Assembly: GCA_003212345.1 (NCBI GenBank)
Contig: QCPZ01000012.1
Location: 1 to 40,647 of the forward strand
DNA: 40,647 bases
Reading direction: 5' to 3'
Source: SAR116 cluster bacterium AG-447-A06
GTDB taxonomy: Bacteria > Pseudomonadota > Alphaproteobacteria > Puniceispirillales > Puniceispirillaceae
Part shown: positions 34,569 to 36,455 of the stretch, piece after piece
How the letters are laid out: each line of letters opens with the position of its first letter
Position numbering within the stretch: the stretch's first letter is position 1
Position numbers and translations under genes: made by a program
The notes under the pieces: model-generated
Databases searched by the model: none
What the model was told of the DNA's origin: nothing
What the model saw: the letters and a program-made list of their open reading frames with translations, nothing else

Positions 34569-34616
34569 TTTGGTCGGAGCGGCGGGATTCGAACCCACGA
34601 CCCCTACACCCCCAGT
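34569..34616 (-). repeat. Distal attachment site: copy of the 3' half of tRNA-Pro
   Basis: This is identical over 48 bases to 36377-36424, that is, the CCA end, acceptor 3' strand, T arm, variable loop and anticodon 3' arm of the tRNA-Pro gene, plus two flanking T. It stops in the anticodon loop, and the 5' half is missing, so it cannot be a working tRNA. A 3'-half tRNA copy at the far end is the classic trace of tyrosine-recombinase integration into a tRNA gene. Outside it, 34429-34568 holds no gene; inside, 34617-34796 holds one heptamer pair and no gene. Confidence 0.85.
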
Positions 34617-34701
34617 AAATAAAATAAGGGTGTTGCAGTAGGTTTTCTAAGGTTTTAAGCCAGTTTTTACTTGTCCAATACGCTGCTGTACGCTGTAGTT
34701 T

Positions 34702-34719
34702 ACTCCCCATTTACTCCCC
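34702..34719 (+). repeat. ACTCCCC heptamer pair, left end of element (candidate integrase arm site)
   Basis: Two ACTCCCC heptamers start at 34702 and 34713, 11 bp apart, about 86 bp inside the left attachment copy. The same doublet is found at the other end at 36292-36309. One helical turn of spacing at both ends suggests binding sites for one protein, most likely the arm-type sites of the absent integrase. Confidence 0.5.
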
Positions 34720-34796
34720 AATTATGCTTTCTCCTTCTTCTATTTAAAGCCACCGAAGGTTGCTGCCGTGTAAAGGCGGTAACACTAATTCAGAAC

Positions 34797-36215
34797 TTAA
34801 AAATCGAAAGATTCCTGTCGCCGTCTAAAAATGGGCAGATCAGCAGTCAAGTCAACTTCTCTTCCATCATCTAAAGCCAACACATCTTTAGTAAAAATTT
34901 CTGTATTTCCTTTACGAAAAATCTTGGGACCCGTGTATTTAAATTCGTTAAATTCGCCTAAAATATCGCTTTCAAACTTCTCTGCCTCTGTACCCTTTTC
35001 AAAACGCCACAATTTTACTATTCGTATTTTAGCTCTATCTCTTACTGGAAAACGCTGCTCCACCGAGTGATTAGTTATCCCAACTTTATAGAGTATTTTT
35101 CCATCATCCAAATTTATAGCTATGTAATAGAGTAGCGCAGGTAAGTTGTGATCAAACCTGAAGTCTGCACATTTTGGACAACCCGTGAAGCGCCTGCCGT
35201 TAATGCTGGCTTTCCATTCGTGGTCATTTACTTTTGGACACTTCCACCAAAATAATTTTGATGATCCTTCAGTAAATTGTTCTGGTCTGAGATCGCCATT
35301 TTTTGTTGGATGCCAATCTTTAGCAATCTCTGGATATTTGTATAAAAAATTATTAGTTTTGCTAACTTTTTGGCCCGCACAAAATGGACAGCCAGTTTTT
35401 TGCCTTACTCTTAGAATAACACTGGTCATCCATTCATGATCATCACCTTTCGGACATTTCCACCACACTCTTTTATTTGACTCTGAAACAACTTTATCTG
35501 GTCTTAAGTTACCATTTTTTGTTGGGTGCCATTCTTTAGCTATCACTGGATGATTGATTAAGAGAGTATTGTTTTTACTTATTTTTTGATTTGCACAAAA
35601 AGGGCATTTTCGTTTATTGGCTGTTCTATTATTTATTGCCGTTTTCCACTCATGATCATCTCCATGAGGGCATTTCCACCACACTTTTTTTCCTGAACCA
35701 AAGGTTGAATTCTCTGGTTTCAAATCACCATTTTTTGTTGGGTGCCATTCTTTGGCGATCTCAGGATATTCAACTAACAGATTATTAGTTTTACTTACCT
35801 TTTGACCTGCACAAAATGGACAGCCAAATTTTCTTTGAGTTCGAAGGTTGATCGGCGTTGACCATTCATGATCATCCCCTTCTGCGCACTTCCACCAGAC
35901 TTTTCTTGTCATGTTTGGCGTGACATCTTCCGGTCTTAAGTCACCGTTTTTTGTTGGGTGCCACTCATTGGCGATTTTAGGATCGCTGACTAGCAGGTTA
36001 TTAGTAACACTCACTCTTCTGCCAGAGCAAAACGGACAACCCCTACCCCTAGTTCTATCGTCTATTCTTGTAACCCATTCATGGTCATCACCTTCCGGAC
36101 ACTTCCACCACACTTTTTTGCCTGAGCCATAGGTATAATTCACCGGGTTGAAATCACCATTTTTTGTTGGGTGAATTTGCTCACATAAATTTGGATAGTC
36201 TGCCAAAGTTCTCAT
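34797..36215 (-). CDS. Five-repeat zinc-ribbon/treble-clef (DUF4379-like) protein with C-terminal GIY-YIG-like nuclease domain
   Basis: Five tandem units of about 71-73 residues (numbering from the upstream TTG at 36233) each have HPTKNGD (21, 92, 163, 235, 308), then WWKC, DDHEW and CPxC. First cysteines are 45, 116, 188, 260 and 332; CxxC pairs follow at 66, 138, 210, 282 and 352. The WxC...HEW...R...CPxC pattern is that of DUF4379 zinc domains. After about residue 365 the fold changes: LLYYIAINL, YKVGITNHSVEQRF (382-395), FESDILGEF (Glu 421) and GNTEIF (442-447) follow the order of GIY-YIG/T5orf172-type endonucleases. The likely role is DNA binding and cutting; a defence or element-maintenance function is inference. 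I chose the ATG at 36215; the TTG at 36233 is possible. It is the only gene between the tRNA-Pro copies. Confidence 0.82.
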   Translation of the reverse strand: MRTLADYPNLCEQIHPTKNGDFNPVNYTYGSGKKVWWKCPEGDDHEWVTRIDDRTRGRGCPFCSGRRVSVTNNLLVSDPKIANEWHPTKNGDLRPEDVTPNMTRKVWWKCAEGDDHEWSTPINLRTQRKFGCPFCAGQKVSKTNNLLVEYPEIAKEWHPTKNGDLKPENSTFGSGKKVWWKCPHGDDHEWKTAINNRTANKRKCPFCANQKISKNNTLLINHPVIAKEWHPTKNGNLRPDKVVSESNKRVWWKCPKGDDHEWMTSVILRVRQKTGCPFCAGQKVSKTNNFLYKYPEIAKDWHPTKNGDLRPEQFTEGSSKLFWWKCPKVNDHEWKASINGRRFTGCPKCADFRFDHNLPALLYYIAINLDDGKILYKVGITNHSVEQRFPVRDRAKIRIVKLWRFEKGTEAEKFESDILGEFNEFKYTGPKIFRKGNTEIFTKDVLALDDGREVDLTADLPIFRRRQESFDF

Positions 36216-36291
36216 CAGGACATTTAAGCCCAATTTAGGGTCAGTCTCAACGCCGCAAACAGGCGAAAACTGTCAGACAAAGCAATAAATT

Positions 36292-36309
36292 ACTCCCCAA
36301 TCACTCCCC
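36292..36309 (+). repeat. ACTCCCC heptamer pair, right end of element (candidate integrase arm site)
   Basis: ACTCCCC starts at 36292 and 36303, again 11 bp apart, about 68 bp inside the tRNA-side attachment copy and just upstream of the nuclease-like gene. It has the same orientation and period as the left pair. Confidence 0.5.
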
Positions 36310-36315
36310 AAAATC

Positions 36316-36346
36316 AAAAAAAGCCATCAACCAATTTAGATAGATG
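36316..36346 (-). terminator. Possible terminator downstream of tRNA-Pro
   Basis: On the minus strand an imperfect stem (CATCTATC against GGTTGATG) is followed by GC and seven T. It lies 33 bp past the tRNA 3' end, a plausible stop for the tRNA transcript. It lies inside the element, so it was supplied by it. The stem has a mismatch and a wobble pair, so confidence is low. Confidence 0.3.
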
Positions 36347-36376
36347 ACTAGTAATAAATTGATTTTATTTATAAAA

Positions 36377-36424
36377 TTTGGTCGGAGCGGCGGGATTCGA
36401 ACCCACGACCCCTACACCCCCAGT
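36377..36424 (-). repeat. Proximal attachment site: 3' half of the intact tRNA-Pro
   Basis: This is the partner of the copy at 34569-34616, identical over 48 bases. It runs from two T outside the CCA end to the anticodon loop, the region where tRNA-directed tyrosine recombinases usually cross over. The tRNA gene is complete on this side because the incoming element restored or retained its 3' half. Confidence 0.85.
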
Positions 36425-36455
36425 GTAGTGCGCTACCAGGCTGCGCTACGCTCCG
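36379..36455 (-). tRNA. tRNA-Pro (anticodon GGG)
   Basis: This 77-nt cloverleaf on the minus strand has acceptor CGGAGCG paired with CGCTCCG, D arm GCGC..GCGC with GCCTGGTAGC, anticodon stem CTACA/TGTAG around loop CTGGGGG (anticodon GGG), T arm GTGGG-TTCGAAT-CCCGC, and an encoded CCA end. The first base C of the acceptor is typical for bacterial tRNA-Pro. It lies downstream of plsX-fabH-ihfA-merR, a common alphaproteobacterial neighbourhood, and is the integration site of the element on its 3' side. Confidence 0.96.

Follow-up and report, generated by a model that had tools for sequence, protein, structure and literature searches.

The 3' half of a tRNA-Pro gene occurs twice in one contig of SAR116 cluster bacterium AG-447-A06, and the short element enclosed by the two copies is the subject of this analysis. 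We examined positions 1 to 40,647 of contig QCPZ01000012.1 (the window, by which we mean that whole stretch of 40,647 nucleotides). The genome it comes from (G000 in our set) is 80% complete and comprises 69 contigs with 2.0 Mb. The 48-bp copies at 34569-34616 and 36377-36424 are exact, and the sequences diverge on both flanks. ARAGORN, run on the whole window, called a single tRNA, tRNA-Pro(GGG), at 36379-36455 on the minus strand, so that 36377-36424 is part of the tRNA gene and 34569-34616 is a 3' fragment only. Chance falls far short of explaining an exact 48-mer of which one copy stops precisely at the 3' end of a tRNA gene, 1.8 kb from the other. The interval measures 1760 bp, 82% of which is taken up by one open reading frame (ORF; 34797-36233, minus strand, 478 aa), and its GC content is 38.8%, against 47.6% for the window. 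A sequence-only reading of the locus had described both the paired copies, the second alone in a full tRNA, and the small interval nearly filled by one gene, and both descriptions hold. The features of the element, all on the minus strand, are as follows.

34569-34616, minus: distal attachment (att) copy, the tRNA-Pro 3' half without the 5' half (exact 48-bp match, no tRNA call).
34617-34701, minus: P-arm spacer, the core of the left end, which aligns with the left arms of the phage attachment sites (attP) of L142, L143, L149, and L150.
34702-34720, minus: paired arm-type repeats of the P side (TGGGGAGTAAATGGGGAGT), at the same distance from the core as in the phages within a few bases.
34721-34790, minus: remnant that aligns with the 3' terminus of a gene adjoining attP in the phages, a putative gene tail.
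34797-36233, minus: cargo gene, 478 aa, with a TTG start and an alternative ATG 18 bases in.
36234-36291, minus: promoter-side sequence, common to related island ends with other cargo and putatively regulatory; in alignment it takes the position at which the phage integrase module begins.
36292-36310, minus: paired arm-type repeats of the P' side (TGGGGAGTGATTGGGGAGT), supported by pattern searches and phage geometry.
36311-36349, minus: degenerate hairpin and T-run between the tRNA and the arm repeats, as in phage attP; it aligns with phage AGCCCTCGGCCTTAACTGGCCGGGGGCTTTTTTT and is a putative terminator.
36377-36424, minus: proximal att copy within the tRNA gene (exact 48-bp match).
36379-36455, minus: intact tRNA-Pro(GGG), the target gene (ARAGORN).

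Two other candidate features were rejected. A tmRNA match at 34571-34664 scored 16.2 bits against an Rfam cut-off of 47 and was taken as chance, and a tRNA-Val remnant at the left inner end was given up, as the 3' end of a phage gene aligns there.

Just inside both ends of the element are direct repeats of the form TGGGGAGT-N3-TGGGGAGT in the same orientation (34702-34720 and 36292-36310, minus strand). When the spacer was allowed to range from 3 to 8 bases, the arm-pair pattern had two matches in the 2.0 Mb of its own genome, both at the element ends, and the control had 0. In the viral_contigs collection, the left-arm pattern (TGGGGAGTAAATGGGGAGTAA) matched four contigs and the right-arm pattern (TGGGGAGTNNTTTGGGGAGTAA) matched the same four; because L142 and L144 carry an identical stretch, these represent three distinct sites. 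On each of the four, the arm pairs flank a tRNA 3' half that is followed by an integrase gene. Phage contig L143 has the left-end core and a tRNA-Pro core, together with TTGGATAC arms and a different integrase. These paired repeats had gone unmentioned in the sequence-only reading, and we judge them more telling than the 48-bp repeat.

The similarity to phage attP sites extends beyond the repeats. The left end of the window element (about 150 bp) aligned with L142, L143, L149, and L150 at 67 to 78% identity over 142 to 166 columns, and the right end (about 105 bp) did so at 70 to 76% over 102 to 108 columns, with scores far above those of 300 shuffles each. Counted as motif starts as searched, the repeats of the window element begin at -103/-92 before the core and +69/+80 after CCA; those of L142, L149, and L150 begin at -101/-90 and +71-72/+83-84, and those of L143 and of two islands in the relative G006 begin within 3 bases of the L142, L149, and L150 values. 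The ends of the element have the layout of an L142-family attP, a core between two arm pairs, within 4 bases. A hairpin with a T-run ahead of the right arms is also common to the element and the phages. In the phages, the integrase occupies the place and orientation of the window cargo gene, and in L142 it is preceded by a 76-aa ORF. We also sought an inner motif of about 26 bases, common to right ends, as a packaging signal; neither it nor another inner end motif of such islands had a match in viral_contigs.

The element itself encodes no recombinase. Profile matches of its single large ORF included no integrase or relaxase family, and a home-made hidden Markov model (HMM) found no integrase among its ORFs of at least 60 aa. 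Two tyrosine recombinases above the Pfam cut-off are encoded in its own genome; their best matches are the XerD/PRK00283 and XerC models, both below the equivalog cut-offs. Since the element encodes no integrase and this incomplete genome offers only XerC/XerD-like enzymes, the recombinase must either act in trans or have been lost. The pattern of tyrosine recombinase insertion proposed in the sequence-only reading thus stands as to the sites, but it comes without an integrase in the element.

The closest comparison is provided by G006, the single-amplified SAR116 genome AG-390-P06, which belongs to the same genus and of which 72% is available. At its tRNA-Pro, G006 has the same right end, followed by a short remnant of the cargo gene start and two unrelated small genes, and the locus continues to left-end arms at the contig edge. 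The right ends of the window element and of the G006 element differ by 1 mismatch in 142 noncoding base pairs beside the tRNA (99.3% identical), whereas the tRNA-merR spacer is 88% identical and two other spacers are 77% and 79% identical; the mismatches of the right end (1/142) differ from those of the three pooled spacers (59/315) at a Fisher p of 2e-9. Gene identities are 82% (merR), 87% (ihfA), 89% (fabH), and 89.5% (plsX). Counting the N3 version of the arm pairs in 61 genomes, G000 and 60 relatives, gave five matches in two genomes, two in G000 and three in G006. The G006 matches lie at the two ends of its tRNA-Pro element, and two of the three overlap at the contig edge, where the left end has a third repeat; its att copy is not on the contig. 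The right end was matched in 6 of the 61 genomes, with some matches being short.

Other G006 loci carry related ends. Contig C55 has a left end with GGATACA-type arms around a LacI/transporter-like cluster, C69 has a right end with a degraded cargo gene start adjoining a TPR-methyltransferase gene, and C38 has a tRNA-Glu with two tandem islands of 5.5 and 1.65 kb, neither with an integrase. Only fragments of the cargo gene are present in the available 72% of G006. Because the ends resemble phage attP sites and the same ends surround different genes at the same tRNA in a close relative, the intact tRNA with a distant 3' fragment represents a site-specific insertion at the tRNA gene, and the gene at 34797-36233 is therefore cargo. 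Both points agree with what had been proposed from the letters of the window. The locus is thus an att-bounded insertion with attP-like ends at phage geometry and no integrase, and the comparison shows that ends and cargo have recently moved or been exchanged between species.

Cargo also recurs under other arms and at other tRNAs. The 1.65-kb tRNA-Glu island of G006 carries a PF00144 gene and is 93.0% identical over 1421 bp to DNA directly downstream of the tRNA-Pro of G011 and 95.3% identical over 1342 bp to a G014 array of tRNA-Pro 3' fragments, whereas G006 and G011 host genes are 75.4% identical over 2700 bp. The right ends are otherwise similar but have TTGGAT-type arms in G006 and GGGGAGT/GGGGAAG-type arms in G011. 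Since the module is kept at 93 to 95% identity with different arms and tRNAs, these copies show one cargo wrapped in different attP modules at different tRNA genes. In G014 C34 (L095 7700-8200 and 19370-20000), a flank-att-left-end stretch is present twice, identical by eye. This duplicate may be an amplification or assembly artifact or a real duplication, and we gave the array little weight.

The cargo protein contains five DUF4379 treble-clef zinc modules (PF14311, E 5e-102, five stretches), encoded by five DNA repeats within 35191-36173 that are spaced 213 to 216 bp apart and are 64 to 79% alike. Scanned alone, its C-terminal domain matched T5orf172 (GIY-YIG type) with 20.9 bits against a cut-off of 20; within the whole protein, the score was 18.3 bits, under the cut-off. 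The whole protein matched phrog_681, "endonuclease," at an E of 6.1e-41. A structure model gave the zinc modules a pLDDT (predicted local distance difference test) of 84 to 95 in most ten-residue blocks up to residue 350 and the C-terminal domain low confidence. Foldseek returned six PDB matches at an E of <0.001, from trypanosomatid mitoribosome structures, several of which were named DUF4379 proteins in the sequence search. PADLOC gave no convincing defense match (best E 0.022). By eye, DUF4379-type modules of viral relatives seem joined to other C-terminal parts. The cargo is probably a zinc-module nuclease, perhaps with an anti-phage or anti-competitor role.

A scan of viral contigs with the L142 integrase gave 17 loci, and in 14 of the 15 inspected upstream an attP lies ahead of the integrase (the exception, L239, starts at the gene); several of the 14 repeat one phage, and the codes were read by eye. 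In these 14 attPs, the arm code is the same on both sides up to one base. The codes seen were GGGGAGT, GGCAACG, GGGTACG/GGGTACA, GGGGAAG, and GGATACA, with tRNA-Glu or tRNA-Asp-like cores. Among 10 integrases, residues 1 to 62 were on average 91% identical when the arm code was the same (7 pairs) versus 64% when it differed (38 pairs), and residues 63 to 170 were 85% identical with the same core (21 pairs) versus 52% with different cores (24 pairs).

Label permutation used 9 of 13 aligned integrases. Four had been dropped beforehand: L241 as a near copy of L240, L239 as having no attP on its contig, and L143 and L252 as divergent; records repeating the same phage were not added. The observed association was equaled in 7 of 5000 permutations for the N-terminal domain versus the arm, 68 of 5000 for the middle domain versus the core, and 55 of 5000 for the C-terminal part versus the core, and the crossed domain and label comparisons of the same nine integrases gave no signal (1691, 3124, and 3507 of 5000). 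L143, compared with L253 after the test, shares its GGATACA arms, and the two are 86% identical in the N-terminal domain and 20% in the middle domain; the L142 and L240 integrases are 95 to 99% identical outside the N-terminal domain and 58% within it, and their arms differ. Across related marine phages (L142, L143, L149, L150, and L240 to L253), arm codes are mixed with Glu, Asp-like, or Pro cores, and this mixing is matched by swaps of the integrase N-terminal domain. In lambda-type integrases, the arms are read by the N-terminal domain and the core by the rest. The phage data fit this manner of reading, under which the window element would call for an L142-type N-terminal domain with a tRNA-Pro-type remainder.

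We surveyed 18 intervals bounded by tRNA-Pro or tRNA-Glu 3' copies, with both copies on one fetched locus. A second interval of G014 C34 (L095 10795-19528) was excluded for ending in the suspect duplicate, and no integrase was found there either. Pairs of full tRNA-Pro genes (GGG, CGG), a G020 island (two loci, with a weak integrase match), and G006 C39 and C55 (contig breaks) were not counted. The home-made HMM, which is possibly less sensitive than the Pfam model, found an integrase in 2 of the 18 (G004 and G012 e1) and none in the other 16; sizes ranged from 1.4 to 12.8 kb. In nine intervals, no more than 24 of 300 shuffles reached the frequency of a 7-mer common to both ends; for one of the nine, that 7-mer is the low-complexity AAACAAT. 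Island codes also found in phages include GGATACA, in G006 C55 and C38 e2; G014 C34 has one GGCAACG copy and a GGGAAG/GGGGAGG pair. Nine island proteins were scanned, with matches that include GAF, CoA-transferase, ABC transporter, TauD, and Fe-S families.

Tandem islands occur in G006, G012, and G014. At the G012 tRNA-Pro (L041 3296-18200 and L042 168-9951) there are four, with an HMM integrase only in the tRNA-proximal one; the second, of 1.9 kb, has five TGTCTCC repeats over its two ends. The G029 tRNA-Pro (L099 8926-10603) has a 1.7-kb att-bounded interval with four TGGCGTA repeats; judged by eye, its first codons look like those of an integrase gene that is then cut short. This interval is possibly an intermediate between autonomous and integrase-less islands. 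In G014, the tRNA-Glu array has at its far end a gene that by eye is purF-like, placed between two degenerate tRNA-Glu 3' copies (L096 1624-3496). purF is usually a core gene.

Taken together, we favor the reading that the window holds a small integrative element without a recombinase, similar to the cis-mobilizable elements (CIMEs) of streptococci and addressed to a phage integrase acting in trans, and we put its probability at roughly 0.68. A helper temperate phage with an integrase that reads GGGGAGT arms and a tRNA-Pro core would enter the cell, and its integrase would excise the element as a circle or insert it at the tRNA-Pro of another cell. The address would have two parts: the N-terminal domain of the integrase would recognize the arm repeats, and the core-binding and catalytic part would recognize the tRNA core. 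An island could come under a new helper if its cargo were enclosed by a different attP module. That a phage integrase does this work in trans today is what we infer.

Several observations weigh against this reading. No phage with both GGGGAGT arms and a tRNA-Pro core was among the viral contigs examined: on the four GGGGAGT contigs the core is Glu or Asp-like, and L143, with its Pro core, has GGATACA arms. No helper was found in the available part of G000, although one could lie in the absent 20% or so, and a search of 136 genomes from the order with the L142 integrase came back empty, an outcome that is weak alone. Annotated phages had only distant integrases (<60% identity), and their DNA matches were mostly tRNA pieces; beyond these, Pelagibacter phage HTVC027P matched in an endolysin stretch and Synechococcus phage Syn5 over 50 bases. 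The empty site with one tRNA copy that the sequence-only reading expected in relatives did not turn up among the 136 genomes when they were searched with the outer flank plus att; G014 alone shares the outer flank-att junction, and its site is occupied. The ends are also rare, with arm pairs in 2 of 61 genomes and none of the 40 most complete ones, the left end in 3 of 61, and the related C38 left end in 3 of 136. The other 9 of the 18 surveyed intervals lack a shared 7-mer arm signal (at least 224 of 300 shuffles), so part of the set is decayed, composite, or of another kind. Finally, the G011 copy of the swapped module has its gene split into two frames, and no recognizable left end or att copy lies behind it.

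Some of these points would favor an immobile scar, in which a prophage or integrase-bearing island at tRNA-Pro lost its integrase and most of its genes. The left end looks like the tail of a phage gene, the broken-off integrase start in the G029 interval indicates that such decay seems to happen here, and both the helper missing from the available part of the genome and the lack of an empty site among the 136 genomes are as a scar would predict. However, a scar does not account for a right end that is 99.3% identical to that of G006 over 142 bp while neighboring intergenic DNA differs by 12 to 23%, for the same ends enclosing different cargo, for arm pairs that are intact at both ends, or for two tandem integrase-less islands at tRNA-Glu in one single cell. 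We consider a scar unlikely, though it is the strongest of the alternatives.

Homologous recombination between conserved ends, acting as passive homology arms, could likewise exchange cargo. It would draw on the 100 to 200 bp of end common to islands with different cargo and would accommodate one cargo carried by different attP modules. It leaves unexplained why the arm repeats are at phage geometry and where the extra att copies of tandem arrays come from, and it fits poorly with the same cargo at two different tRNA genes; we regard it as improbable. Still less probable is that the cargo nuclease spreads itself, as a free-standing homing endonuclease does, by cutting the empty tRNA-Pro site. 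The C-terminal GIY-YIG-type domain and the phrog_681 endonuclease match speak for such an activity, but the same ends are present in G006, where the available part of the genome contains this gene only in fragments, and homing neither creates att repeats nor needs arm sites. Tandem duplication of the tRNA gene with decay of one copy, which accounts for a 3' half present twice, can practically be dismissed given the exact 48 bp with no trace of a 5' half, the phage-type arms inside the interval at both sides, and interval content that differs between close relatives; neither this pattern nor core DNA between the copies, either of which would have told against an insertion, was seen in the loci examined.

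The favored reading, an element addressed to a phage integrase, has parallels in known systems, of which CIMEs come nearest. The CIMEs of Streptococcus, related to the integrative and conjugative element (ICE) and integrative and mobilizable element (IME) families, have att sites and cargo only, with no recombination genes, at 1.2 to 13 kb, and they accrete in tandem next to the target gene (PMC7563491). Like them, the window element is flanked by att copies with no recombination or transfer gene found. In that account, CIMEs arose from ICEs or IMEs by decay and are moved in cis once accreted, whereas the ends of the window element match a temperate-phage attP; no autonomous element was seen beside the window island, conjugative elements not having been searched for. 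Dehalococcoides has 15 ssrA islands without an integration module (PMC3146451). Those belong to a serine recombinase family, whereas the window element has complete phage-type arm repeats on both sides.

Described phage satellites are said, in the paper on phage-inducible chromosomal minimalist islands (PICMIs), to need their own integrases and excision factors (PMC10803314). The window element resembles phage-inducible chromosomal islands (PICIs), P4-like satellites, and PICMIs as a small chromosomal island that would depend on a phage, but differs from PICIs and PICMIs in that profile and HMM searches found no integrase or excision functions of its own, and the families matched by its gene do not make it one for replication or packaging. 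Clusters of attC sites lacking integron integrases (CALINs) and integron cassettes are one-gene units moved by a recombinase encoded elsewhere (PMC11389934), and CALINs come nearest among hitchhiker elements. The window element is such a one-gene unit without its own recombinase, but it has a tRNA att core, phage-type arm sites, and anchoring at tRNA genes. Tycheposons and virion-encapsidated integrative mobile elements (VEIMEs) are associated with tRNAs and carry metabolic cargo, and Tycheposons carry their own tyrosine recombinase, unlike the window element. Both are described as marine islands that are possibly satellites (PMC11389934, PMC10803314). In open-licence literature, no title or abstract opening described such SAR116 islands or prophages or integrase-less attP satellites.

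A broader proposal, which we hold only tentatively, is that SAR116 has an integron-like cassette system run on phage integrases, in which recombinase-less cassettes from one gene to operon size would sit in attP modules with two-part addresses, in tandem at tRNA genes, and would change helper by an attP swap. It is easy to dismiss islands that carry only cargo and no recombinase as dead scars. In this element, the helper can be read from the ends: the arm repeats and core predict the acting integrase, which makes mobility directly testable. The phage family is, moreover, a natural series for how integrase N-terminal domains read arm sites, because L142 and L240 are nearly identical outside that domain and differ in it and in their arms. 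If such mobility is confirmed, single-gene cassettes of a marine lineage would have temperate phages as their common engine, and an island could switch to another helper through exchange of a short attP module.

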